The notes under the pieces: model-generated | What the model saw: the letters and a program-made list of their open reading frames with translations, nothing else | What the model was told of the DNA's origin: nothing | The model's database searches: none | In this document: piece after piece, positions 24,400 to 46,330 of the stretch | How the letters are laid out: each line of letters begins with the position of its first letter | How positions within the stretch are numbered: the first letter of the stretch is position 1 | Made by a program: the position numbers and the translations under genes | Assembly (NCBI RefSeq): GCF_018614195.1 | Contig: NZ_JAGGOT010000003.1 | Location: 1 to 55,649, forward strand | DNA from: Streptomyces sp. ISL-43 | Lineage (GTDB): Bacteria; Actinomycetota; Actinomycetes; Streptomycetales; Streptomycetaceae | Length of the DNA stretch: 55,649 bases | Direction of reading: 5' to 3'

Positions 24400-24618
24400 C
24401 TAGGTGGCTCCGAGGGGCTCGATGTTATCCAGGGCAGTCGGGAGCTCTGGTCCGCCACCAGTCGGACGGATGTATCCGCGCCGGGTGGTGCGGGAGGTTC
24501 CTGTGTGCGTGGGTAGGTCCTCGCGGACCACGGCCATGAGGCGCCCCTCGGTGCCGGAGGGAATGTCGCGGACGAGGCGGCCAATCAGCGGGTGTGCCTC
24601 GTGCCCGTCGCTTTTCAT
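24400..24618 (-). CDS. Small hypothetical protein downstream of dapF-like gene
   Basis: 72 residues from the ATG at 24618, which overlaps the dapF stop (ATGA). The longer open frame beyond that is a shadow of dapF. The sequence (HPLIGRLVRDIPSGTEGRLMAVVRED) looks like a small beta-barrel of the SH3-like kind that reads as an accessory or immunity-like protein in similar loci; that is only a resemblance. Last gene of the three-gene minus-strand operon. Confidence 0.65.
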   Translation of the reverse strand: MKSDGHEAHPLIGRLVRDIPSGTEGRLMAVVREDLPTHTGTSRTTRRGYIRPTGGGPELPTALDNIEPLGAT

Positions 24619-25628
24619 CCGTCCGTCTCTGTGTCGTCGGGGTTGTCGCTGCCGATCAGCCGGTTGAGGCCGCGGTCGGCCCGCGCGAGCAGGGCGGGTG
24701 TGGGTACCCCGTACGCAGGCTGCTGCAGGCCCCATTCGCCTTCTGCGAGGGTGTTCGGCCAGGCTGAGTGGAGGCGGACGGTTCCCTGGGCCGTGAGGTA
24801 GGCGGGGCCGGTCAGGGTCATGTTCCCGTCGGCGGCGACGTCGACCATCAGACGGCCTCCGGGAGCGTCCACGGCGTAGCGGACCGGGCCCCGGGGTCCG
24901 GGCGTGCGGGGGAGGGCAGCGGCCACCGCGGCGCAGGCCCCGGTCCCGCAGGACGGTGTTTCGCCCACGCCGCGCTCGTGCACACGGAGCGCCAGGTGCC
25001 GGGAGCCGAGGTCTCGGACGAATTCGACCGTCACGCCGTACGGGTAGGCGCTTGCTGGGGAGACCACGGGTGCGGTGGCGAGGGTGCCGGCGTGGTCGAG
25101 GTTGTCGACGAACGCGACGGCGTGCGGGTTGCCCATGTCGACATGGGCCCCGGACCAGCGCCGCGCGCCGACGGTTACGGCGATCCGCGCCGGTCCGGGA
25201 AAGATTGGGATGCCCATGGAGACGCTGACGTCGCCCCGGTGTGCATCGCCGCCGGTGGGAACGTGGAGGTGTCGCACGCCGGCTCGGGTGGCGAGGGTAA
25301 GGGGGCCGCCCTGGTGGCGTCCGGTGGCGACGAGGTGCTGGGCAAGGACGCGGGCGCCGTTGCCGCACATCGCGCCGAGGGAGCCGTCGGCGTTGCGGTA
25401 GTCCATGAACCACTCGGCATGGCCGGCCATGGCGAAGGCCTCCACGTCGGCGGTGCAGCGGACCAGGCGCAGGACGCCGTCCGCTCCTATGCCGCGGCGG
25501 CGGTCGCAGAGCTCGACGATGTCGGCCGTGGTGAGGTCGAGGAGGCCGTCAGGATCATCCAGGACGACGAAGTCGTTCCCGCTGCCGTGGCCTTTGGCGA
25601 AGGGGACGCTGATCGGGATGGCGGTCAT
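24615..25628 (-). CDS. dapF: Diaminopimelate epimerase family protein
   Basis: 337 residues from the ATG at 25628. Both catalytic cysteines of the DapF fold are present, Cys88 in AMCGNGAR and Cys227 in TPSCGTGACA. The substrate-site motifs GNDFVVLD (18-24) and GNPHAV (166-171) are also kept. DapF interconverts LL- and meso-diaminopimelate. The protein is 45-60 residues longer than usual because of a C-terminal extension ending in an acidic tail. It overlaps the 79-residue gene at its start and the 72-residue gene at its end, so three genes form one unit, probably under the GntR operator at 25905-25937. Its substrate on this plasmid may differ from diaminopimelate. Confidence 0.8.
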   Translation of the reverse strand: MTAIPISVPFAKGHGSGNDFVVLDDPDGLLDLTTADIVELCDRRRGIGADGVLRLVRCTADVEAFAMAGHAEWFMDYRNADGSLGAMCGNGARVLAQHLVATGRHQGGPLTLATRAGVRHLHVPTGGDAHRGDVSVSMGIPIFPGPARIAVTVGARRWSGAHVDMGNPHAVAFVDNLDHAGTLATAPVVSPASAYPYGVTVEFVRDLGSRHLALRVHERGVGETPSCGTGACAAVAAALPRTPGPRGPVRYAVDAPGGRLMVDVAADGNMTLTGPAYLTAQGTVRLHSAWPNTLAEGEWGLQQPAYGVPTPALLARADRGLNRLIGSDNPDDTETDG

Positions 25629-25864
25629 GGGCGGGGTGTCTCCAACTCGATGGACAGCCAGACGGTGCTGGTGCCGGCCGCGGTGGTGGTCAGGCCGTAG
25701 AAGGTGCCGGTCTCCAGGACCGCGAGCAGGCTCTGCCAGTCCTCGGCCGGGACGCGGGAGGTGTCGGCGTGGATGGTCATCACGCCGTCGTGCTCGGCGG
25801 TGTCGGGTGCCTGGCCGGTGAGTTCGGTCAGAGCCTCTATGGCCGTGGTGCCTAATTCGCGCAC
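25625..25864 (-). CDS. Small hypothetical protein, first gene of the dapF operon
   Basis: 79 residues from a GTG at 25864. Starts with a helix (AIEALTELTG), then a mixed alpha-beta domain (VMTIHADTSRVPAEDWQSLLAVLE). No motif recognised. The stop overlaps the dapF-like start by four bases. Promoter side faces the GntR palindromes 40 bases upstream. Confidence 0.6.
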   Translation of the reverse strand: MRELGTTAIEALTELTGQAPDTAEHDGVMTIHADTSRVPAEDWQSLLAVLETGTFYGLTTTAAGTSTVWLSIELETPRP

Positions 25865-25904
25865 TGCCCCTCACCCCGAACTCTCGGATCTCACGGATAG
25901 CACT

Positions 25905-27959: not shown

Positions 27960-28988
27960 ATGCTGCTCGCCTTATCCCTGATCGCCGCCGGAATCCTGCT
28001 GCGCCAGCCCGACCGTCTCCGCTTTGGCCGGGGCCGGCCCCACGCCGCGGACGCGGCGCAGCTCATAGCCCTCCAGCGCGCCCGGGCCAACAACTGGACC
28101 CCCACCGTCCTGGTCGTCGGACAGTGGGTGCAGATAGCCGGGTACTGGATGCTCGCCGAGCACGGCCTGTTGGGCGCCGTGGTCGCGATGGCCGGAGTCG
28201 CCGTCCAGCTCCGGCATCTCCAGGAGATCAGCCACCACGCCGTGCACGGGGTGCTGGCCCGCACCCGCCGCGCCAACGACGTCCTGGCCGCGCTCGGCGC
28301 GCACTACCCACTAGGCCTGGCCCCCGTCGCGGTACGCCGACGTCGTCACGTCCGCGACCACCACCCTGCGGCCACCCTGTCCAGCGACCCCAACCTGGCT
28401 GAGCTCTCCCAGGCCGGCATGCGACCGGGGGTCGAGCGCTACCGCTTCGCCGCCGCCCTGCTCTTCCCCGCTACCGCGCGCGGCATTGCCGTCACGGCCT
28501 CCACTCTGGCGGCCAACCTGCGGCCACAGCCCGGCCGGTATGCAGCAGGTCCCGCCGTCGCCCTGGTCCTGGCAGCCGCGTACGCGACCGGCGGCTGGAC
28601 GGCCGTCCTCGCCGGGGTGCTCGTCCCGCGCCTGCTGCTCTACCCCCTACTGGCCTGGGCCTCACTGCTCGTCGAGCACACCTGGTTCGACGCCGACCAC
28701 CGCACCGGCACCCCCGCCGAGATCGAAGCCGGCCGCTGCCTGCGCCTCTACCCGCACAATCGCGCCCTCGCGATGCTCGCCGCCGCGACCTGGCTCCCCT
28801 ACGGGGACCTCCACCACTACGCGCACTCCGCCCACCCCGGCCTGCGCTGGAACTACCTCCCTGCCCTCGAACGCCACCTCCCGCCCCCGCACTTCACGCC
28901 CCAGGGCCTGCTCATCGGCCCCGACTCGGTCACCGGCCGCCACCGCGCGGCCCTGGAGTCGGCAACGGCTCTCCCGGTCACCACGTAG
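27960..28988 (+). CDS. Fatty-acid-desaturase-like membrane protein
   Basis: 342 residues from the ATG at 27960. At least four hydrophobic segments. Three His clusters are placed as in membrane fatty acid desaturases: QEISHHAVH (about 90-98), RRRHVRDHH (about 127-135) and LHHYAHSAHPGLRWNYLPALERHL (about 284-307, the usual C-terminal box). A further EHTWFDADH lies near 238-246. These would bind a diiron centre for desaturation or hydroxylation of a lipid-like substrate. Regulated, by inference, by the GntR operator just upstream. A 21-bp terminator follows. Substrate unknown. Confidence 0.75.
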   Translation: MLLALSLIAAGILLRQPDRLRFGRGRPHAADAAQLIALQRARANNWTPTVLVVGQWVQIAGYWMLAEHGLLGAVVAMAGVAVQLRHLQEISHHAVHGVLARTRRANDVLAALGAHYPLGLAPVAVRRRRHVRDHHPAATLSSDPNLAELSQAGMRPGVERYRFAAALLFPATARGIAVTASTLAANLRPQPGRYAAGPAVALVLAAAYATGGWTAVLAGVLVPRLLLYPLLAWASLLVEHTWFDADHRTGTPAEIEAGRCLRLYPHNRALAMLAAATWLPYGDLHHYAHSAHPGLRWNYLPALERHLPPPHFTPQGLLIGPDSVTGRHRAALESATALPVTT

Positions 28989-30564: not shown

Positions 30565-32571
30565 TCATTGCGCATCCTCAGCCGCCATTGCGCATCGACT
30601 CGCGGATCCTAGACTGGTGTGGGTGTGGGTATAGGCACTGGCCTGGGTGGTCCACATGGCGGCGTACTCGCCACCGGCGGCCAGGAGGCTGTTGTGGTCG
30701 CCTTCTTCGAGGACCCGGCCGTGGTCGAGGACGATGATGCGGTCGGCGTGCTGGGTGGAGCCGAGGCGGTGGGTGATGAGGATGACGGTTCGGTCGGCGG
30801 CGAGTTCGCGGATGCGGTCGTAGGCGGCCTGTTCGGCTCGGGGGTCGAGGGCGCTGGTGGGCTCATCGCAGATCAGGAGGGGTGCGTGCTTGCGGGCATA
30901 GGCGCGGGCGGCCGCGATCCGCTGCCACTGGCCGCCGGAGAGGTCCCGGCCGCCGGACTGGGAGGGGCGGATGTGTGTGTTGAGGCCGTCGGGGAGTGAG
31001 TCGATGACCTCGGTGGCGCCTGCGGCGTGGGCGGCGGCGAGGACGGCGTCGTCGCTCTGGTCGCCTTGGCCCAGGCTGATGTTCTCGCGGACGGTGGCCT
31101 GCCAGCGGGCGATGTCCTGGGGCAGCATCGCAAGGCGAGAGAACAGCTGGTCGGGGTCGACGGTGGTGAGGTCGGTGGTGTCCCAGCTGACGGTGCCGCT
31201 GGTGGGGGCGTAGAGCCCCGCGAGGAGTTTGGCCAGGGTGGATTTTCCGGCGCCGTTGTGGCCGACGATGGCGAGGATCTCGCCGCGGCGGACCGTCAGG
31301 GAGATATCGGTGAGGACGGGGGCGGTAGCGCCCTCGTACGCGAAGGTGACCTTCTGGGCGCGGATGACCGCCGGGTTCGCGGGGACCGGCGCGGGGGCGG
31401 CCGGGAGGGTCGTGCGGGCCTTGGCATCGGTGAGGAAACTAGCCCAGTCCTCTAGGTAGAGGCCCATGCGGTAGGTGGTGGTCAGGCCGGTGGCCATGCC
31501 CGTCAGCAGCATGCGGCTGGTCTGGACGGCGATGAGGGCGGTCGCGGCGTCGGCGGTGGGGATCCGGCCGTGGACGGCCAGCCAGAGCAGGGCGCCGTAG
31601 ACGAGCAGGGTGGCGATGCCGGCGAGGGTGTCGCCGGTGAGCTGGCGGCGGGCGGTGTCGGCGCCGATGCGGGCGGTGTGGTCCTCCAGGCGGCGGCTGA
31701 CGGCCTGGTACTGGTCGAGGAGCCAGGGCCGCATGGTGCCGGCGCGGACGTCGAGGGCGGTGCTGCGTCCGGCGGCCAGGTACATGAGGATGTGGCGGGT
31801 ACGGCGGTCGCCGACGGCGTGCCGGTCGGCGTGGTGGGCGGCCTGGGCGGCTCGGGCGGCGGCCCAGGCACGGGGCAGGACCGCGAGGACCAGCAAGGGC
31901 AGCAGCAGCGGGTCCAGGGCGGCCAGAATCCCAGCGGCGGCGGTGATGCCGAGCGCGGCGCCGGTGAGCGCGACGAGAGATTCGACGATGGTGTGGGCGT
32001 CCTTGGCGGCGCGGTTGGCGGCCTCGCCGTGGTCGCACCAGGCGGTGTCGTCGTAGGCGGCGAGTGGGACGCGGGTGGCGGCGTCGAGGTAGGCGAGCTC
32101 GGCGCGGCCGTCGACGCGGGGGCCCAGGCGGGCGGTGGTCGCGACGGTCGCGGCGGAGGCCAGGGAGCGGGCGGCAGCGACGGCGGCCAAGGCGAGCAGG
32201 GCGAGTTCGGCGCGGTCGAGGCGTTCCAGCGGGGCTCCGGCGGCGAACAGGGCCGCGAGCGCGGTCCGGGTGAGGTGCAGGGCCACGGCCGTGAGGGCGC
32301 CAGTGGCGAGCTGGAGTCCCACCAGGCGCAGCAGCGCGGTGCGGTCGGCCCGCCAGGCCAGGGACAGCGTGATCCGCATCAGGCGGGGCAGGGTGCGGGC
32401 CATCGTGAGCAAGCCGTCGGTGCGGTCCTCGTGGCGTTCGCTGGCGAGCGTCCATGCGGGGAGCGGTTCGGGGGCCGGTCGCCGTCGGCGGCGAAGGCGG
32501 TTTCCGAGCCGCTCCCCGAGAGGGGCGCGGGGGTGCGGAGTGGTCGGGGTGCGGTGTTGTGTGTCTGTCAC
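30565..32571 (-). CDS. Lasso peptide ABC exporter
   Basis: 668 residues from a GTG at 32571; an internal ATG is possible. An N-terminal membrane domain with about six helices (about 75-390) is fused to an ATPase domain. That domain shows Walker A GHNGAGKST, signature LSGGQWQR and Walker B LLICDEPTSAL, the full set for an active half-transporter that dimerises. As the last gene of the precursor-cyclase-B-transporter order it is the D protein that pumps out the mature lasso peptide and often gives self-immunity. 53 bases separate it from the B gene. Confidence 0.9.
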   Translation of the reverse strand: MTDTQHRTPTTPHPRAPLGERLGNRLRRRRRPAPEPLPAWTLASERHEDRTDGLLTMARTLPRLMRITLSLAWRADRTALLRLVGLQLATGALTAVALHLTRTALAALFAAGAPLERLDRAELALLALAAVAAARSLASAATVATTARLGPRVDGRAELAYLDAATRVPLAAYDDTAWCDHGEAANRAAKDAHTIVESLVALTGAALGITAAAGILAALDPLLLPLLVLAVLPRAWAAARAAQAAHHADRHAVGDRRTRHILMYLAAGRSTALDVRAGTMRPWLLDQYQAVSRRLEDHTARIGADTARRQLTGDTLAGIATLLVYGALLWLAVHGRIPTADAATALIAVQTSRMLLTGMATGLTTTYRMGLYLEDWASFLTDAKARTTLPAAPAPVPANPAVIRAQKVTFAYEGATAPVLTDISLTVRRGEILAIVGHNGAGKSTLAKLLAGLYAPTSGTVSWDTTDLTTVDPDQLFSRLAMLPQDIARWQATVRENISLGQGDQSDDAVLAAAHAAGATEVIDSLPDGLNTHIRPSQSGGRDLSGGQWQRIAAARAYARKHAPLLICDEPTSALDPRAEQAAYDRIRELAADRTVILITHRLGSTQHADRIIVLDHGRVLEEGDHNSLLAAGGEYAAMWTTQASAYTHTHTSLGSASRCAMAAEDAQ

Positions 32572-32624
32572 ATCTGGCGCAACGCGTCACTCATACGGGT
32601 GGATACGCAAACACCCCTGGTCCA

Positions 32625-33335
32625 TCACCCGTTCGAATTGCTGACCGTGAGGACGGGCAGGTACGGCCAGAGGCGGTCGTGGTCGTCCTGCCCGAGCACG
32701 TGGCCGTCGGCCTCAATCCAGGCGTGGGCGCCGCGCGGGGTGAAGCGGGCCCCCAGCACCCAGTGGACGCGGTGGCCAGTGAGGGCAGCGGCCAGATGGC
32801 AGGCCAGGGACTCCTCCAGGCAGGCGACACGGCCCGGCCACCAGGTCCCGGCGGCACGGACGGCGCAGAGGATGCCTTCGGCGTCGTGGACGCGGGCCGG
32901 GCGGCCGGGCAGGCGGGTTGCGGCGCGGGCGACGGTGACGACGTGCCGGATCGGCAGGGCCCGCAGGAGCAGCAGGGCCGCGGCCAGGCCGATGCCTGCG
33001 GTGACACGGTCCCGGAGGGTGGTCCGGGCGGTGGGGGTGCAGAGGACCGTCGGTGGCGGGCCGGGCCGAGCGTGGTGCACGGGGCGCCCGGCGCGAAGGT
33101 GGTCGAGGTCGGCGGCGGCGCGGGTGAGGTCGGCCCGAACCCGGTCGGGGTCGGCGCCGGTGGCGGCCCACCGTGCGGTGGCGCCCTCGATGGCGGCGGC
33201 CCGCTCGGGTGCGGAGGCCGGCAGGTCGAGGAGGGCTGCGGCGATGGGGTCCAGGAGGGTCCACCGGCCGGTCGCGAGGTCGAGGAGGGCCGCGCCGGCG
33301 GGGCCGCGGGCGGCGTGGAGGCGGGGCTCGGTCAT
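32625..33335 (-). CDS. Fused lasso leader-recognition and leader peptidase (B1-B2)
   Basis: 236 residues from the ATG at 33335, which overlaps the cyclase stop (ATGA). Residues 1-90 are a PqqD-like RRE (GAALLDLATGRWTLLDPIAAALL, then DPDRVRADLTRAAADL) that would grip the precursor leader. Residues about 110-236 are the transglutaminase-like protease. Its Cys172 (VACLEES), His204 (GAHAWIE) and Asp210 form the expected triad. It would cut the leader after Leu34 of the precursor. Actinobacterial clusters usually encode B1 and B2 as separate genes; here they are one. Confidence 0.85.
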   Translation of the reverse strand: MTEPRLHAARGPAGAALLDLATGRWTLLDPIAAALLDLPASAPERAAAIEGATARWAATGADPDRVRADLTRAAADLDHLRAGRPVHHARPGPPPTVLCTPTARTTLRDRVTAGIGLAAALLLLRALPIRHVVTVARAATRLPGRPARVHDAEGILCAVRAAGTWWPGRVACLEESLACHLAAALTGHRVHWVLGARFTPRGAHAWIEADGHVLGQDDHDRLWPYLPVLTVSNSNG

Positions 33336-35179
33336 CGGCTGCTCTCCCGGATCGGAGTCGGCTCCCACCAAGCCTCGGAGCCGGTCGGGAGGTTCGTCAG
33401 CCACAGCTCGGCGGCGACCAGGGCGTGAACGCTCCCGAGGTCGGCGGGGGAGCCGTGGATCGTGTGGTCCAGGGAGGCCAGGACGGCGGCGGGGTCGATG
33501 AGACCGGCGTCAGCCAGGGCCGAGCCAGCCAGGAGGCCGCGCAGGGCGGGGGCGTTGACGCGCAGACCGTCGTAGACGCCGTTGAACGGCGTCTTGGTGC
33601 GGCGGGCCAGGACCGGGGCGTGGACGAGACCCGTGAGAGCTGCGCGGGCCAAGGGCTTGAAGTCACCGGGGCGGCGCCGTTCCCAGGCGGGGACGGCCTG
33701 GCAGATGTCGACTATCCGGGTGTCGAGGAACGGCGCGTACACGGGCAGGTCCCACAAGGTGCGGGTGAGGGTGTCCAGGCCGGAGTACTCGGTCCCGGTG
33801 GCCTCCAGCGCGAGGCGCTCGCGTAGTTCGCCGGGGCCGACGGTGGGGTCGGCGGTGGCGGCGCGGGTCCCGATCAGGTCGGCGAGGGCGGTGCGGCCGG
33901 TCGTCGTGAGCCAGCGCGCGGCGGACAGCCGTCCGCACCAGCGGGCCGCGTCGGCGGCGTCGGGCAGCGCGCTCGGGGCGGGGCCGGTCAGGACGGTGTC
34001 GGCGAGGTCGGCCAGCGCTCGGGGGTGGGTGCCGCGTCCGGCCGCGGTGACGGCGCGCAGGATGGGGTGGGCGGCGGCGCGGCGGTCCCGCGCGAGCCGG
34101 TAGGCGTCGCGGAGGGCGACGACGCGGTCGCCGGACCGGTAGCGGTCGGCCGGTGACGCAAACGCGTCCAGGACGTTGTCGCCGCCCCAGCCGGTGAGGT
34201 GCCCGGTGCTGCCCGCGGTGACGGCGGGGGCAAGCTGTGCGCCGAGGATGGCGAGCATGCCCACGCTGAGGGTGGGGGCGTCGCTGAAGGGGACGTTGGC
34301 GGGCTCGTCGAGCCGGTCGAAGTGCCGGCTGCCGACGTGGCGGCCGTCGACCAGGTGCCGGGTGATGCCCGGGTGGGCGGCGGCGATCTCGGCCGCGTAC
34401 CGGGTGTCGTCCTGGTCGGCCATCGCGGCGTCCACGTAGGTGACGGCGGTGAGGTCGGTGTGGGCGGCGGCCAGGCAGGTGATCGAGCTGGAGTCGACAC
34501 CGCCGGACAGATCCGCCGAGACCGGCTGGCCGGACAGGGCACGGCGGCCGACCGCGAGCGGCAGTTCGTGGCGCAGTGCGTCGGCGGCGTCAGCGAACGA
34601 GCGCCGGCCTGGGGCGGGGAGCCGCTCGATCGAGGGCGAGGCGTCGGGGGCGAGGGTCAGCACCGCTCCTGGCGGGACCCGGTGGATGCCGCCGAACCAG
34701 CCGTCGGTGCCTGGCTCCACGCCCCAGGTGGTGAACTCGGCCAGCAGACGGACAACATCCGGGACGGCGCCAGCGAGGGCGGCGAGAGCGGCGGCGGACG
34801 TCGACCAGGTCACCGCCCCGGCGGCATCGGCGACCCAGTGGACCTGGACGGTGGCGGCCCGGTCTCCGGTGATCCGTATGGTGCGGCCGACCCGGACGAT
34901 CCCCATGTAGGAGCCGTGCAGCTGGGTGACGGCGTGCCAGTAGCCGCGCACCGCAGCGTCGGCGGCATCCCGGACCTCGTCCACGGTGGCCAGGCAGTCG
35001 CCGACGAGGATCACCTCCGCGGTGCCGTCCCTGGACAGCGCCCGCTGTACTTCGTGGGGGCCGTGGTCGACGGTCCAGGCGCGCAGGGTGCCGTCGTCGT
35101 GGATTTCGTGTCCGCCGCGCGGGCGCGGGCCGGTGGTGGGCGGGGGCGTGTGGGTGACCGTGCCTGCGACGTACCTCAT
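33332..35179 (-). CDS. Lasso cyclase, asparagine-synthetase-like (C protein)
   Basis: 615 residues from the ATG at 35179 (GGGAGAG upstream). The N-terminal half is the glutaminase-like domain, which lacks a catalytic Cys at position 2, as expected for lasso cyclases that do not use glutamine. The C-terminal half has the ATP-pyrophosphatase PP-loop SGGVDSSS (225-232). The enzyme adenylates the Asp9 side chain of the core and joins it to Gly1 as a macrolactam. It follows the precursor gene after a large hairpin and overlaps the B gene. Confidence 0.9.
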   Translation of the reverse strand: MRYVAGTVTHTPPPTTGPRPRGGHEIHDDGTLRAWTVDHGPHEVQRALSRDGTAEVILVGDCLATVDEVRDAADAAVRGYWHAVTQLHGSYMGIVRVGRTIRITGDRAATVQVHWVADAAGAVTWSTSAAALAALAGAVPDVVRLLAEFTTWGVEPGTDGWFGGIHRVPPGAVLTLAPDASPSIERLPAPGRRSFADAADALRHELPLAVGRRALSGQPVSADLSGGVDSSSITCLAAAHTDLTAVTYVDAAMADQDDTRYAAEIAAAHPGITRHLVDGRHVGSRHFDRLDEPANVPFSDAPTLSVGMLAILGAQLAPAVTAGSTGHLTGWGGDNVLDAFASPADRYRSGDRVVALRDAYRLARDRRAAAHPILRAVTAAGRGTHPRALADLADTVLTGPAPSALPDAADAARWCGRLSAARWLTTTGRTALADLIGTRAATADPTVGPGELRERLALEATGTEYSGLDTLTRTLWDLPVYAPFLDTRIVDICQAVPAWERRRPGDFKPLARAALTGLVHAPVLARRTKTPFNGVYDGLRVNAPALRGLLAGSALADAGLIDPAAVLASLDHTIHGSPADLGSVHALVAAELWLTNLPTGSEAWWEPTPIRESSR

Positions 35180-35219
35180 GTCGGGGCTCTCCCTCTCGGT
35201 GAGACGTTCCGGAAAAGGC

Positions 35220-35276
35220 GAACGCGCGCCCGGAACGGGCCAGCCCGTCAGGGCTGGCCGTCCCGGGCGCGCGTTC
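35220..35276 (-). terminator. Long stem-loop between lasso precursor and cyclase
   Basis: Outer stem 35220-35233 with 35263-35276 (14 bp) and inner stem 35238-35246 with 35251-35259 (9 bp), apical loop GTCA. As in other lasso operons it may end most transcripts after the precursor, so that precursor outnumbers enzymes. Confidence 0.75.
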
Positions 35277-35308
35277 ACCCGAGGTGGCGCCGGACGGCGC
35301 CGGGCGGG

Positions 35309-35461
35309 TCAGCCCTGGTAGTACATGGTGTGGTCGGGGTTGTTGAACCCGCCGCTGCCCAGGGTGACCTCGGAGACGGTGCCGAGGTCGGTGACCTCGG
35401 GGGTGGTGAAGACCTCGGAGGTGGCGATGGTCTGGACGGCCTGGATCTCGGTGTTCTCCAT
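35309..35461 (-). CDS. Lasso peptide precursor
   Basis: 50 residues, ATG at 35461 with AAGGAG six bases upstream. The leader fits the RRE-recognition pattern YxxPxLxxxGxxxxxT with Phe18 in place of Tyr, Pro21, Val23 for Leu, Gly27, and the near-invariant Thr33 two residues before the cut. The predicted core is GSGGFNNPDHTMYYQG (residues 35-50), Gly1 joined to Asp9 giving a nine-residue ring and a seven-residue tail. A hand sum of residue masses less one water gives about 1725.7 Da. I do not recognise the core as a published lasso peptide. Confidence 0.9.
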   Translation of the reverse strand: MENTEIQAVQTIATSEVFTTPEVTDLGTVSEVTLGSGGFNNPDHTMYYQG

Positions 35462-35758
35462 GACGGACTCCTTCGTGTAGGGCTGTCGGATCAGGTCCTC
35501 CAAGGCCGGCACGATGAACTGGGCGTCGGCCTTGAAGTAGATCGGGAGGTCGAACGCCCCTCCGCCGTGCACTCGGCGTCGTGCTGCCGGGCTGGGAACA
35601 GTTGACCCCCTCCACGTGCTGCGTCTCCACGGCGAACCCCGTTGCGCTTGCCTGCGTTCCGAGAAAGCGGCAGTGCTGCGGTGTCGCTGCGAATCGCTGC
35701 GAACAGCCGTGGACCAGGCTGTAGTTCGTGCCGCTGGGCGTAGCCTGGAATCGCACCT
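35462..35758. promoter_or_regulatory. Divergent region between lasso precursor and TPR regulator
   Basis: About 300 bases; must hold both promoters, but no clear consensus boxes are visible. A minus-strand frame in phase with the precursor stays open through it and encodes protein-like sequence just before the start (IYFKADAQFIVPALEDLIRQ); see findings. Confidence 0.4.
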
Positions 35759-37207
35759 TTGACCATTCCCGCAGTTCTCACTTACTCGGATCAGGTGGAC
35801 ACGGTGGCGCAGCTGGGAGCACGGCCGAACGAGGCCCTCGCGCACTGGGTGCGCATCTCTGGAGCCAGCTACAGCCGGATCGCGACGGAAGTCGGCCGGG
35901 TGGCGGCCCGGCACGGGCGCCACGACATCCAGCCCGACAGCTCGCGCGTCTCCCGATGGATCAACAAGGGGGAACGGCCCCGCCACCCCGTCTCCGCGTT
36001 CCTCGCCGAGGCCATGAGCAGCCTGTGCCATGGGCGCACGCTCGCCCCGGCTGATCTGGGCCTGGCCTCCGCCGGACCGCCGCCCTGGGGAGGAGAGGCG
36101 TGGTCCGCGCTTACGGTCGTGGCCGCCATACTCGACACCACCCGGAGCGATGCCGTGACCGACGACCGCACCCCGTCCCGCGCGCGCCACCTATCCGGCG
36201 CCGCCCTGGTCAACGCCGTCCAGCCCTGGCTGCACCTGCACGACCTCGAACCCCTGCCCGCCCCCGAACGGTCCGGAACCCGGCTTGGCCTGTCGGACGT
36301 GGCACGGATCGAGGCGACCACCGACGCGTTCCGCGAACTGGACAACGCACACGGCGGCGGCTTGTCCCGTCTCGCGGTCGTCGGTCAGCTTCAGCACGTC
36401 ACCCGCCTGACCCGCACCGGTATCTACACCGAGGAGACGGGTCGCGCCCTGTTCGTCGCGATCGCGGAACTCGCTTCCGTCGCCGGATGGATGACCCACG
36501 ACGCCGGCGCGCACGCCGATGCCCAGAACTACCTCCTCCTCGGGCTTCAGGCCGCCAAGCAGGCTGGCCGTGACGGCGCCGGGATCGGCGGGCACCTGTT
36601 GAACTGCCTCGCCCGGCAGGCCAACCACCTGGGGCGCACCGACGACGCCCTTGAGCTCGTCCAGGCCGCCCAGTACGGCACCCGCAAACTGCCCCCGGGC
36701 CGGCTGCGGGCCCTGCTGTGCTCGCTCGAAGCGCGCTCTCACGCGGCCCTCGGGCACATCGACGAGATGACCCGCGCCACCGGTGCCGCCGAGCAGGCCC
36801 TCGCCGACGAGGACGCCACAACGACTCCCGGCTGGGCCGCCTGGTTCGACCTCGCCGAATTCCGCGTCACCGCCGGCGTGTGCGAGTTCGAAGCCGCCGA
36901 GCACGCACCCGACCGAATCGGCAACGCCATCACCCTGATCGAGCGGGGCACCGCCAACCGGCCCGCCGACCGGGTCCGCAGCCGAGCCTTCGACCAGATA
37001 GCCCTGGCCCGCGCCCACGTCCGCGCCGACGAGCCCGAAGCCGCCGACACCGCGACCGCCGCGGCCCTGAACCTGATGGGCACCATCACCTCCACCCGCG
37101 TCGGCGACCGCCTACGGGAACTGGACACCGAACTCGGGACCGCCCCGGGAGGGACGGTCACGGCTGACAGCCGCGCACGCATCCGTGCCGCGCTCCAACC
37201 CCTCTGA
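35759..37207 (+). CDS. Helix-turn-helix regulator with TPR-like repeats
   Basis: 482 residues in the longest frame (TTG at 35759). A GTG at 35795 or 35804 (AGGTGG five bases upstream of the latter) is a likelier start. The N-terminal region (SYSRIATEVGRVA, then DSSRVSRWINKGERP) is a helix-turn-helix. Residues about 160-480 are helical repeats of TPR type (paired helices such as GHLLNCLARQANHLGRTDDALELVQAAQ). The architecture matches Streptomyces regulators that sense a small ligand or peptide via TPR. Divergent from the lasso operon, so a likely controller of it. Confidence 0.7.
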   Translation: MTIPAVLTYSDQVDTVAQLGARPNEALAHWVRISGASYSRIATEVGRVAARHGRHDIQPDSSRVSRWINKGERPRHPVSAFLAEAMSSLCHGRTLAPADLGLASAGPPPWGGEAWSALTVVAAILDTTRSDAVTDDRTPSRARHLSGAALVNAVQPWLHLHDLEPLPAPERSGTRLGLSDVARIEATTDAFRELDNAHGGGLSRLAVVGQLQHVTRLTRTGIYTEETGRALFVAIAELASVAGWMTHDAGAHADAQNYLLLGLQAAKQAGRDGAGIGGHLLNCLARQANHLGRTDDALELVQAAQYGTRKLPPGRLRALLCSLEARSHAALGHIDEMTRATGAAEQALADEDATTTPGWAAWFDLAEFRVTAGVCEFEAAEHAPDRIGNAITLIERGTANRPADRVRSRAFDQIALARAHVRADEPEAADTATAAALNLMGTITSTRVGDRLRELDTELGTAPGGTVTADSRARIRAALQPL

Positions 37208-37252: not shown

Positions 37253-38545
37253 TTAGCCCGTCGCCTTGCGGAAGGTCACTTCTCCGTTCGAAAGCGCGAG
37301 GCCCGAGTATTGATCGACTTCGAAGGGGGCGTTCTCCTCGGCTGATGCAGAGCGGTCCTGACCCGTCTGTCCGTCGAGGACCACGGAGCCGTTTGAGCTT
37401 CTGCCGTACACAGCGCCGTGCCAGAACGCTGTCACCCGTGGGATCAGCCGTCCGGATCCGTCCGGCAGCTGCCACAACTTCTGCAGCGAGGCGTTGAAGA
37501 CGACGATGCTGTTGGTCCTCCCGCCACCGGTCTCAAGCGCGCACAGCACGAGAGACCGCTCGTCGTAGCGGCAGTTCCACGACCCGGGCAGCTTCTCCGG
37601 GCTGTCGGCTGCCGCCCGGACGGCGCCTGTTGCGACATCGAGGATCGTCAGCTTCGAGTCGCTGCTCGTGGCTACCAGCCCTGGGCCGGCGGATGATGCG
37701 GGCAGAGGGCCTTTACCCTTCAGCGCCGTCCAGCGAGGCTGCCCTGTGTCCACCGCGAAGCCGGAGATCTGGCCTTGCATCACATCCGTGGACTGGGACC
37801 CTGCGACCACACCGTCCGCCAAAGTGACGGCCCGGAAGCCGGGCTGCTTCCAGCGCACGCTGCTGTCCTGCCGGTTCAGGATGTAGGTCGCGTTCGACGC
37901 CACCACCACGACGTTGTCCTTGTCGGTGGCGACGACCTGCGGCGCACGGATCTCGCTGAGAGCCACCGGGCCGCCCGACACCGGCTGGAACTCGGCCGTC
38001 CAGACGGTCTTGCCGGTGGCCGAGTCCACGGCGAGTACCTCAATGAGGTGGCGTGAGGGCGTCGTCCCCTGTGCCGTGACCGTCCTGTCGAACGCTCCGA
38101 ACACGGTCGCGCTTCCGTCGGCGGGTGTCACCAGCGGAGCGGTCCGTTCGTTGCCGAAGCCGCCCAGCTCCGGGGTGTTCTTCGTGTCCGCCTGCCATCG
38201 CGCCGTTCCGGTCCCGGTGTCGACTGCCTTCAAGCCGCTCTCGGCCGCGATGTATGCGGTGCCGTCGGCCAGGGTCACGGCGGGTCGGCTCGCATCGCCG
38301 CTGCTGGTGCTCGGCTGTCGCGCGTCCGTCAGACCATCAGGGCCTCCTCCCGAGCCGTCGAATCGCAGAGGCGGGTCGAAGGCAGCGCGGGCGGGCGGCT
38401 TCGTGGCCGGGGAAGCCGTCTGCTGACTCACGTTCTTGCCTGATTCGCCGGGGCCGTCACTCGCGCAGCCTGCGAGCAACCAGCTGGCTGCGACGAGACT
38501 GGCCGTCGAGGCGACGAACCTTCTGGAACCCCTGTGAGACCGCAT
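37253..38545 (-). CDS. Secreted PQQ-like beta-propeller lipoprotein
   Basis: 430 residues. Lipobox LLAGCA at about 23-28 after a basic and hydrophobic signal, so the mature protein is lipid-anchored at Cys27 or nearby. A Pro/Thr-rich linker precedes a beta-propeller of repeated blades (AYIAAESGLKAVDTGTGTARWQ, TILDVATGAVRAAA, SVVLDGQTGQD), as in PQQ-like quinoprotein folds. It is divergent from the Tad locus and may be a wall-side accessory; its function is unknown. Confidence 0.75.
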   Translation of the reverse strand: MRSHRGSRRFVASTASLVAASWLLAGCASDGPGESGKNVSQQTASPATKPPARAAFDPPLRFDGSGGGPDGLTDARQPSTSSGDASRPAVTLADGTAYIAAESGLKAVDTGTGTARWQADTKNTPELGGFGNERTAPLVTPADGSATVFGAFDRTVTAQGTTPSRHLIEVLAVDSATGKTVWTAEFQPVSGGPVALSEIRAPQVVATDKDNVVVVASNATYILNRQDSSVRWKQPGFRAVTLADGVVAGSQSTDVMQGQISGFAVDTGQPRWTALKGKGPLPASSAGPGLVATSSDSKLTILDVATGAVRAAADSPEKLPGSWNCRYDERSLVLCALETGGGRTNSIVVFNASLQKLWQLPDGSGRLIPRVTAFWHGAVYGRSSNGSVVLDGQTGQDRSASAEENAPFEVDQYSGLALSNGEVTFRKATG

Positions 38546-41281: not shown

Positions 41282-42144
41282 CCGTGACCGCACTCGTCGC
41301 CGCGAAGTCCTGCGGCGTCACCACCAGCGCGCTCGCGCTCGCCCTGGCCTCGTCCAGGCCCTCTCTGCTCGCAGAGTGCGACCCGGCCGGGGGCACCATC
41401 AGGGCCGGCCTCTTCGAGGGCCGGGTGGACGCCTCCTACGGGCTGTATCACCTGGCGGCCGCCGAACGCGCAGGCGGCGACGCACTCGCACACACCTTCG
41501 CCAGCCACCTGATCCCGCTCGATGCCTCCGGAAACCGGCGCGCCCTGCCCGGACTGACCGATCCAGGGCAAGCGGCGGCACTGAGCCGGACCTGGCCCGC
41601 ACTCGCACAGGTGATGCGGGTCCTGGCCGACGAAGGCGGCTACGACGTGGTCATCGACGCTGGCCGCATCGCCCTGGAATCCGGCAACCTTCACCCGGTC
41701 CTGACCCCGGCACCTCTGCTCCACGGCGCGGACCTGGTCCTCCTCGTCGTACGCGGCACGAAGCAGTCCCTGTCGCTGGCCCGCCACATCGTCGAACCCC
41801 TGCGCGGTGAGCTCGCCGAGCGGGGCTCGGGCGCGGACGCGCTGGGCCTGCTCCTCATCGAGGACGGTCCCGCCCGCGCCCACGAGGTTTCCGCCACCCT
41901 GCGCCTGCCGGTCCTGGCTACGCTGCCCTTCGACCCGGAGACCGCCGGCTACCTCACCCACGGCGGACAGCCGCCGCGCAGCAAGCGCGCGACCCTGCTG
42001 GCCCGCGCGCGGACCGCGTCCGAGGACTTCCGTGCTGCGGCCTCGCGCCGTGCACTGCAGCGCCGCTACCCGCAGCCGGCGGCGTATCCGCAGTTGTCGG
42101 GTGTGCTGCAGCGGCTGAACCAGGGGGCTGGTTCGCGTGGCTGA
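41278..42144 (+). CDS. TadZ/CpaE-like MinD-family protein with degenerate P-loop
   Basis: 288 residues, ATGA overlap. MinD/ParA-like fold: starts with LVAAKSCGVTTSALALALA, where the signature Lys9 is kept but the second Lys of Walker A is replaced by Thr14. Further on are the conserved ECDPAGG and VVIDAGR strands. TadZ proteins mark the cell site of Tad pilus assembly and often have altered P-loops. Probably binds but may not hydrolyse nucleotide. Confidence 0.7.
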   Translation: MTVTALVAAKSCGVTTSALALALASSRPSLLAECDPAGGTIRAGLFEGRVDASYGLYHLAAAERAGGDALAHTFASHLIPLDASGNRRALPGLTDPGQAAALSRTWPALAQVMRVLADEGGYDVVIDAGRIALESGNLHPVLTPAPLLHGADLVLLVVRGTKQSLSLARHIVEPLRGELAERGSGADALGLLLIEDGPARAHEVSATLRLPVLATLPFDPETAGYLTHGGQPPRSKRATLLARARTASEDFRAAASRRALQRRYPQPAAYPQLSGVLQRLNQGAGSRG

Positions 42145-43717
42145 CACCCATCAGCGCCCCGGCCAGGGGGCCGCGGGTCCGGCGGACATCACCAGTCTGC
42201 TGGCCGGCCGTATCGGCCCCAGCCGTACTCCCGATCACGGACGCCCGCCCGTAGACCCTTCCGTCCTGCCCCCGGTTCCGGTGGCGCGTCCGGTGGCTGC
42301 CGCGGCGCCGACCCATCCCGCCTCGGTCCCCCGGCTCGCTGGGCTGCCCGGTGAACTGCCCGTCAGCTGGGATGTCATCGAGTCCCTGCAGGCCGAGGTG
42401 TCCCACAATCTCACCGCGGAGGACCCCACCCGGCTGCTGGAGGATGACGACCGCCGGGCCCGGGCGCGCTCGCTGGTGAACACGGCGGTCGCGAACTGGG
42501 CAACCCTCTACGCCCAGGGCAACACCCCGCTCACCTCCGACCAGGAACGGGCGATAGGCGACGCCGTCTTCAACGCGATGTACCGCGGTGGCCGCCTGCA
42601 GTCGCTCCTGGACCAGGACGGCGTCGAGGACATCATGGTCGACGGCCTGACAGCCCACATCGAGTACTACGACCAGCCCCGCCGCACCATCAACAAGGTC
42701 TCCGACTCCCACACGGAGCTCATCGCCTGGGTCAACCGCATGGCCGGCCTGTCCGGGCATGGCGAACGCTCGCTGACCCAGGCCACCCCCAATGTCGGCT
42801 TCCGCATGCCCGACGGCTCTCGCGTCACGGCGAGCCTGCTCACCACCCGGCCGTCCGTAGTAATCCGCAAGCACCGCATCCGCGAGCACGGCCTGGACAA
42901 GCTCCTCGAGTGGGGCACGATCAACCCGCTCCTGCGTGCGTTCCTGATCGCGTGCGTCCAGGCCAAGCTGAATCTGCTGGTCGTCGGGGACATGGGGGCC
43001 GGCAAGACGAGCCTGCTGCGGGCACTGGGCCGGGAGATCCCGGCAAGCGAGCGGCTCGTGACCCTGGAGTCGGACCGCGAGCTCTACCTGGACGAGCCCG
43101 GGCCGCCAGAGAAGCCGGGCCCGCTCACCTTCGCCTTCGAGGCCCGCCAGTCCAACGGCGAAGTACGCGGAGCCGGCGACCAGGCCGGCGCGATCTCCAT
43201 CTCCGAGATGTACGAGACCGCCCTCCGGTACAACGCCAGCCGGGTGATCGTCGGAGAGGTCCGCTCGAAGGAGATCCTGCCCATGTTCGAGGCCATGTCC
43301 TCGGGCGGAAAAAGCTCGATGTGCACCCTGCACGTACGGCGGCCGCACGCCATCATCAGCCGCCTCGTCCAGCTGTGCACCAACGCCGGGGTACAGACGG
43401 AGGCCGCCCACCACCTCATCGCCTCCTCCGTCGATGTCGTCATCTACCTCACCTACCTCGACGAGACCGCGATCGGCGGCCGCAAGCACCGCTTCGTCTC
43501 GCACATCTACGAGGTCCACGACGACGTCGGTGAAGGCGGACGCCCCACCACCAGCGAGCTCTTCGCTCCGCAGGGCGACGAGCCGCGCGCCGTCTACCGC
43601 AACATGCCCTCCTTCATCGACTCCCTCGAACTCACGGGCAGCTTCTACCGGCACTGGCTCACAGGGCAGCAGCCCGAGACGGCCTGGGAAACGCCCCTGC
43701 AACTGGTGAGCCGATGA
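42137..43717 (+). CDS. tadA: TadA/CpaF pilus assembly ATPase
   Basis: 526 residues from the GTG at 42137, overlapping the TadZ-like gene by eight bases. Walker A is GDMGAGKT at residues 284-291. The preceding N-terminal domain and the following Asp and His boxes (LVTLESDRELYL, then RVIVGEVRSKEILPMFEAMSSGGKSSMCTLHVR) are those of VirB11/PulE-type CpaF ATPases. It powers extension and possibly retraction of the Flp pilus. Confidence 0.9.
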   Translation: MADTHQRPGQGAAGPADITSLLAGRIGPSRTPDHGRPPVDPSVLPPVPVARPVAAAAPTHPASVPRLAGLPGELPVSWDVIESLQAEVSHNLTAEDPTRLLEDDDRRARARSLVNTAVANWATLYAQGNTPLTSDQERAIGDAVFNAMYRGGRLQSLLDQDGVEDIMVDGLTAHIEYYDQPRRTINKVSDSHTELIAWVNRMAGLSGHGERSLTQATPNVGFRMPDGSRVTASLLTTRPSVVIRKHRIREHGLDKLLEWGTINPLLRAFLIACVQAKLNLLVVGDMGAGKTSLLRALGREIPASERLVTLESDRELYLDEPGPPEKPGPLTFAFEARQSNGEVRGAGDQAGAISISEMYETALRYNASRVIVGEVRSKEILPMFEAMSSGGKSSMCTLHVRRPHAIISRLVQLCTNAGVQTEAAHHLIASSVDVVIYLTYLDETAIGGRKHRFVSHIYEVHDDVGEGGRPTTSELFAPQGDEPRAVYRNMPSFIDSLELTGSFYRHWLTGQQPETAWETPLQLVSR

Positions 43718-43857
43718 CCGCATCCACCTGGGAGCCCCGTGACCTCCGAAATGTTCTTCATCTCCGTCTGCCTGATGGTGACCGCCGTGATCGGCGCTGT
43801 GATCGCCGTGGTCCTGCACTTCAACTGATGACCGCACTTGCCTGGGAGGCCCGGTGA
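43714..43857 (+). repeat. Duplicated ribosome-binding/start cassette flanking a tiny gene
   Basis: ATGACCGCA, four variable bases, CCTGGGAG and a GTGA appear at 43714-43742 and again at 43828-43857. Both copies place GGGAG four to six bases before a GTG start (43739 and 43854), so the second is probably a duplicated translation-start element. Confidence 0.65.
43739..43828 (+). CDS. 29-residue single-pass membrane peptide in the Tad operon
   Basis: A GTG frame too small for usual gene calling: it opens MTSEMFFISVC and ends VLHFN, with one continuous hydrophobic helix (about 5-27). Third codon positions are G or C in all but two codons, far above the overlapping frame. GGGAG lies four bases upstream. 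It sits between tadA and tadB and may be a small assembly or anchor subunit. No homologue is claimed. Confidence 0.6.
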   Translation: MTSEMFFISVCLMVTAVIGAVIAVVLHFN

Positions 43858-44780
43858 ACTCCAGCCAGCTGGCCCTCGTCGCCGCGTGCTGCGCCGTCGT
43901 CATGGTTCTCGCCGGGATCGGCGCCATCCGCTCCTTCCGGGGACGCATCGTGGACCCGGGCAAGCCCGCCACCCGTACGGCCGGCCGGATCCAACGGGCG
44001 AGATCGGAACTCCCGGAAGCCTGGCAGCGCCGGTGGCGCCACCTGTGCGCGATCGCCGTTGTGGTGACGCTCGGGGTGTGGGCATGGACGGGCTGGCCCA
44101 TCCACGGGCTGCTCGCCGGCGCTGCCGTCATCGGCCTCCCCTTCCTGTTGAATCCGGGGACGGCCGCCGAGCAGCGCATCGAGCGTCTGGAAGCGATCGG
44201 GCAGTGGCTCAACGGCTTGGCGGGTATCCACACCGCGGGTATCAGCCTCACCCAGACCATCCACTCCAGCTCCCGTAATGCCCCCGGCCCGATCGCGCCG
44301 AACGTGCGGCTGCTTTCGGAGCGGCTGCGGTCCGGGATGGACGCGAAACTGGCGTTCGCCGGTTTCGCCGACGAGCTCGCCGACGGGGTCGCCGACCACG
44401 TAGTGCTGCTCCTGCAGTCCCACGCCATCTACAAGGGCCCGGGCCTGTCCCGCGCGCTCGAGGCCCTCGCGGTGACGATCCACCAGCAGGCCGCTGATGC
44501 ACGGGACATCGAGTCCGACCGCGCGAAGGTACGCAAGTCCAGCCGGATCGTGTCCGTGGTGATCTGCGTGGTCTTCGTCGGCTGCATGCTCAATTCGGCC
44601 TGGTCCGCCTGGTACCAGTCCCCGATGGGTCAGGTCGCCCTCGCCGTCCTCGGCGGCCTCTTCGCCTGGACGCTGTCCTGGCTGCGCCGCGCCGCCCGCA
44701 CCAAGCCCGACCCCCGCCTCCTCAACCCGCTGCCCCAGCTCCCCGACCCGGCCGCGCTGTCGGGAGGTCTTCTCCGATGA
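43854..44780 (+). CDS. tadB: TadB pilus assembly inner-membrane protein
   Basis: 308 residues from the GTG at 43854. Membrane segments at about 6-24, 66-83, 86-102, 235-252 and 263-281, with a type II secretion F-type cytoplasmic domain between the second and third clusters. The domain carries the expected helices (IGQWLNGLAGIHTAGISLTQTIHSSS, then LLSERLRSGMDAKLAFAGFADELADG). Forms the assembly platform with TadC. ATGA overlap with tadC. Confidence 0.8.
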   Translation: MNSSQLALVAACCAVVMVLAGIGAIRSFRGRIVDPGKPATRTAGRIQRARSELPEAWQRRWRHLCAIAVVVTLGVWAWTGWPIHGLLAGAAVIGLPFLLNPGTAAEQRIERLEAIGQWLNGLAGIHTAGISLTQTIHSSSRNAPGPIAPNVRLLSERLRSGMDAKLAFAGFADELADGVADHVVLLLQSHAIYKGPGLSRALEALAVTIHQQAADARDIESDRAKVRKSSRIVSVVICVVFVGCMLNSAWSAWYQSPMGQVALAVLGGLFAWTLSWLRRAARTKPDPRLLNPLPQLPDPAALSGGLLR

Positions 44781-45670
44781 TTCCTCTTTCCGCGGTCCTT
44801 CCGGCCGCAGCCGCTGGCGCCTGCGTCGGCCTGGCGATCCGTGCCCTGTGGCCGGGCCGCCCCGACCTCGCGACCGCGCTGGACCGCCTCGACGTAACCC
44901 GCACCTCCAACCGCCTGTCGCCGGCCCCTGCGGCCGGCTCGGGTTCGGTGTCCGAGCGGGTCGGTGTCCGGATCCTGGCAGCAGCCGGCGACCGGATCGC
45001 CCTCCCGGTGCGTGACTTGGCCCTGCTGCGGATCTCCCCCGCCGAGCACCTTGGCAAGCGCTTCTTGTTCGGCCTGTACGGGCTGGTTCTGATGCAGCTT
45101 GCGGCGGGGCTTCTCGCCGTCCTGGGCGTGGTCTTCCCCTTCGTCATGCCTGTCGGCGCATCCCTGGCCATGGGCGTGTTCTTCTGGATGTGGCCCGGCC
45201 GGGAGGTAAAGAAGGACGCCGCCGCGGCCCGCCTGGTCGTCCGGCACGCCGCCGCCTCCTACCTCGACCGCGTCGCTCTCGCCCGTATCGCGAACGCGGG
45301 TGCCGCGCAGGCCCTGACGGAGACGGCGGAGGTCGGCGACGGTTGGATCTTCGAGCGGATGCGGCAGGCGTTCGCCGAAGCTGACCTGTCCGGCACGACC
45401 GTCTGGGACGCTCTCAAGCAGCTCGGGGAGCAGCTCGACATCCCCGAACTGACCCGGCCCGCGGACACGCTCGCTCTCGCGGGCGACGGCGCCGCCGTCT
45501 ACACCACCCTCCAGGCCCAGGCCCGCCAGCTGCGCGTGGCGATCCTTGCCGACTCCAAAGCCCAGGCCAACGAAGCCTCGACCACGATGGTGCTGCCGGT
45601 GACCTTCGGCGTACTCCTCATGCTGGTCTTCGTCATCCTTCCGCCCATCGTCAGCTTGTTCAACGGCTGA
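44777..45670 (+). CDS. tadC: TadC pilus assembly inner-membrane protein
   Basis: 297 residues, ATGA overlap with tadB. Membrane segments at about 6-24, 97-118, 121-137 and 270-291. The central cytoplasmic T2SSF-type domain has the layout of TadC (AARLVVRHAAASYLDRVALARIANAGAAQALTE, then EADLSGTTVWDALKQLGEQL). Partner of TadB in the pilus platform. A 21-base gap leads to the pilin gene. Confidence 0.8.
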   Translation: MIPLSAVLPAAAAGACVGLAIRALWPGRPDLATALDRLDVTRTSNRLSPAPAAGSGSVSERVGVRILAAAGDRIALPVRDLALLRISPAEHLGKRFLFGLYGLVLMQLAAGLLAVLGVVFPFVMPVGASLAMGVFFWMWPGREVKKDAAAARLVVRHAAASYLDRVALARIANAGAAQALTETAEVGDGWIFERMRQAFAEADLSGTTVWDALKQLGEQLDIPELTRPADTLALAGDGAAVYTTLQAQARQLRVAILADSKAQANEASTTMVLPVTFGVLLMLVFVILPPIVSLFNG

Positions 45671-45691
45671 ACCCCCCAAGGGAGAAAAACT

Positions 45692-45880
45692 ATGAACGTG
45701 CGCCCGCTGACCATCCTGCTCGCCGCCCGCTGGGAGCGTCTGAAGAGCCACCGTGGTGATGCCGGGCAGACCTCGGCCGAGCTCGCACTCATCGCCGGCG
45801 TGGTCATCGCCATTGCCATCGCCGTCGTCGCGGCCATCAAGACTTTTACCGACGCCAAGATCCCGCTCATCGGGGCCTGA
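45692..45880 (+). CDS. Flp-type major pilin
   Basis: 62 residues, ATG with AAGGGAG upstream. A basic leader is followed by G-QTSAE, the prepilin peptidase site with Gly26 and Glu at +5. The hydrophobic helix (LALIAGVVIAIAIAVVAAI) is the usual Flp pilin polymerisation segment. Very short C-terminal tail. No prepilin peptidase (TadV/CpaA) gene was found in the window, so it would be supplied from elsewhere. Confidence 0.8.
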   Translation: MNVRPLTILLAARWERLKSHRGDAGQTSAELALIAGVVIAIAIAVVAAIKTFTDAKIPLIGA

Positions 45881-45907
45881 GCCCACCATCATCAGAAGGA
45901 GAGCGGC

Positions 45908-46330
45908 GTGAAAGCCCAGTTCAACGGCCGGTGGCGGCACCTACGGGACCGCTTGCGGCAGGGCGGAGACCGCGGCTCGGGAAGCGTCGAGCTTGCGGTC
46001 CTCGCCACCGTCGTGCTGTTCCTGGGCTTCGCCGCGATCCAGACCGGTATGTACTTCCACGCGCGCAGCGTCGCCCGCTCCGCCGCCACCCAAGGCGTGG
46101 AAGCCGGCCGCCAGATCGGCTCCAGCCCCGACGACGGCGTCGCCCAGGCCCAGCAACTTCTCGCGAAGTACGACAGCGTCCGCAGCGCCAGCGTGTCTGC
46201 GGAGGGCAGCGGCACCGAGCAGATCCGCATCACCGTACGCGGCACCGTCGCCACCCTCGTCCCCGGACTCGAACTCTCCGTCGTCCAGCACGCCGAGGCT
46301 CCCGTCGAGCGCTGGGTCGGGGCACCGTGA
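45908..46330 (+). CDS. TadE-like pseudopilin
   Basis: 140 residues, GTG start with AAGGAG before it. Prepilin-like segment GSGSVELAVLATVVLFLGFAAIQ near residues 22-44, then a soluble domain with the TadE-type RSVARSAATQGVEAGRQ helix. Probably a minor pilin or pilus initiator. GTGA overlap to the next gene. Confidence 0.75.
   Translation: MKAQFNGRWRHLRDRLRQGGDRGSGSVELAVLATVVLFLGFAAIQTGMYFHARSVARSAATQGVEAGRQIGSSPDDGVAQAQQLLAKYDSVRSASVSAEGSGTEQIRITVRGTVATLVPGLELSVVQHAEAPVERWVGAP

Follow-up and report, generated by a model that had tools for sequence, protein, structure and literature searches.

The lasso cluster and its predicted product

The window analyzed here is the whole of contig NZ_JAGGOT010000003.1, a 55,649-bp contig from the 8.87-Mb draft genome (127 contigs) of Streptomyces sp. 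ISL-43. Its list of open reading frames (ORFs), together with family models, places the four genes of a lasso peptide cluster on the minus strand between positions 30565 and 35461, in the order A-C-B-D. The precursor gene is preceded by a short conserved DNA block and, divergently transcribed, by a regulator gene outside the interval delimited by the first-pass annotation, with 297 bp between the start of the regulator and that of the precursor. The features are as follows:

35312..35461, minus strand: gene A, lasso precursor, 50 aa (NF033521, 22 bits, cutoff 19; 23 homologs besides the window's own); leader residues 1–34, core residues 35–50, GSGGFNNPDHTMYYQG
33332..35179, minus strand: gene C, cyclase, an asparagine-synthetase-type macrolactam synthetase, 615 aa (PF00733, 103.9 bits, cutoff 21)
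32625..33404, minus strand: gene B, fused RiPP recognition element (RRE) and B2 leader peptidase, 259 aa (NF033537, 69 bits, cutoff 33)
30565..32571, minus strand: gene D, ATP-binding cassette (ABC) exporter with permease and ATPase, 668 aa (PF00005, 107 bits)
35462..35510, minus strand: conserved upstream DNA, GAAGGAG (ribosome-binding-site-like) plus about 35 nt before it (alignment of six loci)
35759..37207, plus strand: NsdA-family regulator with helix-turn-helix (HTH) and tetratricopeptide repeat (TPR) parts, 482 aa (NF053720, 291.9 bits, cutoff 75)

The precursor consists of the leader MENTEIQAVQTIATSEVFTTPEVTDLGTVSEVTL followed by the core GSGGFNNPDHTMYYQG. Its leader element is F-x2-P-x-V-x3-G-x5-T-x, with Phe in the place of Tyr, Thr at position −2 and Gly at core position 1 (FTTPEV...VTL before G), and the precursor is recognized by the NCBIfam model lasso_leader_L3 (NF033521); the frame and the leader pattern are exactly as the first-pass annotation had read them. 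Comparison with other loci (designated L plus a number; L025 is that of Streptomyces sp. H27-H1) revealed that the window, L025 and L046 have almost the same block at 35462–35510, that L026 (strain 8L) retains part of it with a deletion of 4 nt, and that L027 and L048 do not retain it. A longer precursor, as in a 293-aa in-frame ORF and in an 87-aa database version of the window's own precursor (P0002), was put down to the open upstream frame: because the deletion in strain 8L breaks that frame, the extension probably does not belong to the gene, and the block likely represents regulatory DNA rather than a longer ORF.

The cyclase best matches the NCBIfam model NF033561 (albusnodin/ikarugamycin macrolactam cyclase; 257.6 bits), and its best solved relative is a beta-lactam synthetase. 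A GTG further upstream, at 35278, would give a 648-aa alternative; the length is 612–615 aa in 20 of the 22 homologs that reach 70% identity and 90% coverage. Cys195 and His227 of the B protein are invariant among nine aligned sequences, including that of the window, and a profile of these sequences matches, in its N-terminal part, two lasso RREs of solved structure, TbiB1 (E 2.1e-4) and TfuB1 (E 0.028); the assignment of the RRE follows from this profile match, not from the predicted structure. A scan of the ISL-43 genome for the B2 family found the copy in the window and no second gene. All four genes are matched by family models or by solved relatives, and the designation as a complete A-C-B-D cluster, already made in the first-pass annotation, is well supported by the sequences.

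Following established lasso biochemistry, the RRE would bind the leader and B would cleave after Leu34, cutting free the last 16 residues of the precursor; the cyclase would activate Asp9 with ATP and couple it to Gly1, leaving a tail of seven residues that, with its Tyr13 and Tyr14, would hold the thread. Since Asp9 is the sole acidic residue of the core, the nine-residue Gly1-Asp9 ring proposed earlier is the only possible one, and the computed mass of the lasso peptide, 1725.684 Da ([M+H]+ 1726.691), agrees with the previous hand sum of about 1725.7 Da. The product would have a threaded fold with a short, tight shape; the adjacent ABC exporter likely pumps the finished peptide out, and the divergent NsdA-family regulator likely controls transcription of the cluster. 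Very probably, the cluster follows this standard route to a Gly1-Asp9-closed peptide of 1725.68 Da, exported and under NsdA-family control.

Several observations weigh against this reading. The score of the cyclase is below the NF033561 cutoff of 300; the PqqD/RRE model NF033530 gives 15.9 bits on the B protein, with a cutoff of 70; the predicted structure of B is poor (mean predicted local distance difference test, pLDDT, of 65.4); and the product is a prediction from its genes. It is nevertheless scarcely credible that the cluster is decayed or silent and yields no product, given that the four frames are all open and conserved, that the cyclase is 84% identical to that of L025, and that changes in the core are confined to a few positions.

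Conservation of the core

Apart from the window's own precursor, a search of 5.8 billion proteins retrieved 23 homologs, with E values from 2.3e-20 to 2.6e-9, six of them already named lasso RiPP family leader peptide proteins by a source. The core is identical in 15 of the 23, and none of them differs from it by more than two changes. The first-pass annotation had considered the core unrecognised, a description that finds no support as worded, as relatives in which the core is unchanged or almost so are already in the databases; a literature search, to which supplementary lists such as RODEO tables were external, found no paper naming this core. Sequence variation was not evenly distributed along the 24 precursors (16 with an identical core, the window included): mean pairwise identity is 94.2% in the core and 61.2% in the leader, where it amounts to 41% in the N-terminal part and 78% in the last 17 residues. 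Changes in the core are confined to positions 8, 10 and 14, and one further locus, L026, also shows Lys7.

The homolog search depends on 5-residue words in common, a requirement that favours conserved cores and so counts against reading this pattern at face value. The core was therefore also checked by cyclase alone, which gave 17 loci in 392 Streptomyces genomes (ISL-43 included; at most three candidates scored per genome, with E values up to 1e-60 listed), two in a second genus (70 genomes) and 11 in GTDB contigs. All five cyclase-first loci with at least 70% cyclase identity and a precursor stretch (the window, L025, L026, L027 and L048, each counted once) carry GSGGFN[NK][PA]D[HS]TMY[YWF]QG; a sixth such locus, L032, is a contig fragment without the cyclase start. 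As this type of core is obtained in five out of five such loci, its conservation does not stem solely from the use of the core as a query. Also on the negative side, the pattern used detected no precursor in two of 19 cyclase-first loci (L100 and L101). A spurious hit, L024, was dropped.

This type of core occurs in Streptomyces and Kitasatospora, and is rare by genome sampling (2/392 and 4/394 genomes, with ISL-43 counted in both); no precursor match was found in 50,697 phage records. Judging from these comparisons, the core is a family trait rather than an orphan, and the exact shape of the peptide is likely under strong selection. For most lasso peptides no natural role is known. Less certainly, selection would preserve the core for the sake of a single conserved partner on which the mature peptide acts, be it in competing organisms or within the population of the producer.

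One substantial possibility, although we would put it somewhat below an even chance, is that the peptide is antimicrobial, a bacteriocin-like competitive trait of a plasmid in which the ABC exporter also provides immunity. An exporter gene is present in all five GSGGFN-type loci with enough flanking sequence (the window, L025, L046, L027 and L048), while L026 ends before the exporter position, and antibacterial activity is common among the known lasso peptides. Antibiotic-like peptides, however, often diversify, whereas this core does not, and besides the exporter no target or immunity gene was recognised by Pfam and NCBIfam family scans of the neighbouring genes.

Relatives within a wider lasso group

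Among more distant relatives, the cores include GSAGNNNADDTQYWQ, GSNRSNNADDTEYFQ and GTNNFDTADDTQYKNA. Residue 9 is Asp in all 33 distinct cores compared, and Asp9-x-Thr-[MQE]-Tyr is found in 29 of them, counts to be read knowing that many of these cores were picked with patterns requiring Asp9 or D-x-T-x-Y, some having been read without such a pattern; the cores of L042, L072 and L078 were left out of this set.

Within this group, six loci (L054–L057, L059 and L060) contain a PIMT-like methyltransferase gene where the window has its ABC exporter, as assigned by a family scan of the L056 protein, and have Asp-Thr at residues 6–7 wherever the core was read, the corresponding residues being Asn-Asn in the GSGGFN group (Asn-Lys in L026). 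They share the stretch Asp9-Asp-Thr-Gln-Tyr after the ring among themselves, comparable to Asp9-x-Thr-x-Tyr in the window; their cyclases are homologous to that of the window (30–35% identity), and an NsdA-family neighbour is present in six out of six, as it is in the window. These features recall the aspartimide lasso peptides cellulonodin-2 and lihuanodin: according to PMC13001092 and PMC9266682, a PIMT-like methyltransferase belongs to the make-up of both, and according to PMC13001092 DTAD is the motif of both peptides and the ring motif D(T/S)AD, with Asp6-Thr/Ser7, is the mark of lassimiditides. At the level of motifs, the nine-residue Gly1-Asp9 ring is likewise common to cellulonodin-2, lihuanodin and the predicted window peptide.

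Unlike lassimiditides, the ring of the window peptide contains N6-N7-P8-D9 in place of D(T/S)AD, and the cluster has an ABC exporter instead of the methyltransferase: a hidden Markov model (HMM) derived from the methyltransferases of the relatives, with scores of 603–670 bits in its six source loci, found no match in the window. Additionally, the RRE and B are fused in the window, whereas the methyltransferase loci have a separate gene of 95–101 aa, presumably the RRE, before a shorter B. Because of Asn6-Asn7 and the lack of a PIMT-like enzyme, the predicted window peptide is a relative of the aspartimide lasso peptides and not a member of their class. It could be argued that Asn6, which occupies the place of the Asp6-Thr7 where the relatives' enzyme makes the aspartimide, forms a succinimide by itself with loss of ammonia, in line with Asp-Thr going with the methyltransferase and Asn-Asn or Asn-Lys with its absence in the GSGGFN group. 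Nonetheless, D-N, D-K and D-E occur at positions 6–7 in other relatives that also lack the methyltransferase, and Asn before Asn is slow to react in peptides, so we regard this modification as very doubtful.

Two further comparisons concern clusters with less similar cores. The control locus L073 has the core GQGGGQSEDKRRAYNC, which we take to be that of albusnodin from Streptomyces albus and which is unlike the window core. The cyclase of the window best fits the albusnodin-type family NF033561, as noted above, and its precursor weakly resembles the model NF033525 (20.4 bits, cutoff 30); however, the window core has His10, not the Lys10 given for albusnodin in PMC9266682, and general family scans recognised no acetyltransferase among the neighbours scanned. 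Clusters of the DDT[QE]Y type with an ABC exporter, exemplified by GSAGNNNADDTQYWQ in Streptomyces filamentosus (L029) and in genome G158, share with the window the A-C-B-D layout, a cyclase (43–49% identical to that of the window) and Asp9-x-Thr-x-Tyr, but their cores differ at most other positions. In L029, L030, L031 and L033, an M20-type (ArgE/DapE-like) peptidase gene, identified by a family scan of the L029 protein, lies upstream in the place of the NsdA regulator; this and a further gene, without NCBIfam match in L029, precede the precursor on the same strand.

Other particularities were seen among these clusters. L034, L102 and L051 each contain two precursors with different cores, and the cyclase match in L051 (genome G113) contains an in-frame TGA. 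In L078 (G023:C1, positions 4570–4967), tandem lasso-like precursors, GRQVFNDSDKDNYFEG and GGETATEPDKDMFFFGP, neighbour a strong NsdA-family regulator as well as a more distant cyclase.

The contig and the divergent regulator

The contig carries genes for a TcpC-like protein, a VirB4-like conjugation ATPase, a Replic_Relax protein and a ParA-type ATPase. The conjugation ATPase is 71–79% identical to its counterparts in the 15 Streptomyces plasmid records listed, out of 450 that match; the TcpF model scores 91.5, far below its cutoff of 1100. Moreover, Streptomyces sp. H27-H1 has a 57.5-kb contig (G320:C115) that contains the lasso cluster together with a collinear transfer module, with most proteins 73–96% identical. 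From the conjugation, partition and replication-relaxation genes and this collinearity, the contig is likely a plasmid, in agreement with the earlier description of the cluster as plasmid-borne; circularity did not find support, as the ends of the 55,649-bp contig show no overlap. No precursor match and no cyclase above 48.3% identity were found in PLSDB, from which records of the ISL-43 genome itself may be absent; the cluster was therefore not met on any named plasmid of that collection. The relative P0008 comes from a genome whose longest contig measures 8.66 Mb, and for this reason its copy of the precursor is likely chromosomal.

Also on the likely plasmid contig are genes for a diaminopimelate epimerase (24615–25874, minus strand; DapF, 200 bits, cutoff 115) and for a fatty-acid-desaturase-type protein (27960–28988, plus strand; PF00487) with a weak match, far below cutoff, to an arginine hydroxylase model. 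Tad-type secretion genes, coding for an ATPase, two T2SSF proteins, and TadE and TadE/G-like proteins, occupy 42137–47225 of the plus strand.

Of the 19 cyclase-first loci, 13 have a divergent NsdA-type homolog within 1.5 kb of the cyclase frame, compared with 3 of the 20 other lasso B2 loci (Fisher p 0.001, a value that overstates the case because the loci are related). The scoring used an HMM made only from 64 sequences, those of the window regulator and of proteins related to it, which include the own regulators of two of the 13 loci, the window and L043. The control loci come from 30 genomes (G001–G030), excluding the window's own cluster and with no cyclase found in L079; their matches are L078 (562 bits, precursor GRQVFNDSDKDNYFEG), L072 (67 bits, GDVSVGQSDDSDAGQYYAP) and, weakly, L074 (18 bits). 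A first count of 17 out of 22 loci, with control matches in L072, L075 and L078, was set aside, its HMM having been trained partly on the same regulators. The lack of an NsdA neighbour in six of the 19, like the relatedness of the loci, weighs against the reading given above. NsdA-family genes are common, with 13–39 matches per genome (31 genomes, at most 39 scored); with about 30 genes in 8.5 Mb we estimate the chance of finding one within a 2-kb stretch at less than 1%.

The regulators of the window and L025 are 89% identical, but in L046, where the core is identical and the cyclase 77% identical, the regulator is only 20–21% identical to them (21% to that of the window); likewise, the regulator of L048 is 24% identical, and L027 has a different HTH protein in the slot. 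As the slot is refilled with dissimilar regulators beside the same core, these comparisons argue for repeated recruitment of one type of regulator, not for a dedicated peptide receptor, and NsdA-family regulators have apparently been recruited repeatedly and independently beside this lasso group. Next to the regulator, 37253–38545 of the minus strand encodes a beta-propeller (PQQ_2) protein, 84% identical to one in the same place in L025, which may belong to the unit.

The regulator is confidently modelled (pLDDT 90.6), with N-terminal helices read as an HTH followed by a TPR superhelix. The arrangement of a small-peptide gene beside the gene of an HTH/TPR regulator, and the TPR fold, are shared with the RRNPP pairs (Rap, NprR, PlcR), and one may envisage a knotted pheromone, that is, a hyperconserved exported lasso peptide which, in place of a linear peptide, is sensed by its own divergent HTH-TPR regulator and switches on the cluster and perhaps the plasmid transfer genes. 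We know of no such quorum system in Streptomyces. A structure comparison with the TPR part gave Rap-pheromone complexes, NprR and the pLS20 Rap regulator among the matches listed, but the Z scores of unrelated TPR proteins (APPBP2, MalT and APC subunits) equal or exceed theirs; a Foldseek search gave no match reaching 0.001, a sequence-profile search of solved structures with the regulator gave nothing meaningful, and a literature search for NsdA together with lasso peptides found nothing on point among the papers listed. The TPR fold, as modelled, does not decide on peptide sensing. In contrast to RRNPP systems, the window peptide would undergo modification and leave the cell through an ABC system of its own, the host is a Streptomyces and not a member of the Firmicutes, and the regulator itself is not conserved with the peptide. 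That the peptide is a signal read by this regulator is consequently improbable, and the regulator would more likely switch the cluster according to cell state than by reading the peptide; were such sensing real, regulators of one family would have been swapped repeatedly around one signal.

While this kind of cluster is already known, it combines a near-frozen core with the repeated choice of one regulator family. If the core is conserved by selection on its shape, the partner of the peptide should be findable, and the recurring NsdA-family neighbours, absent from 17 of the 20 other lasso loci, may offer a handle for switching silent clusters on.

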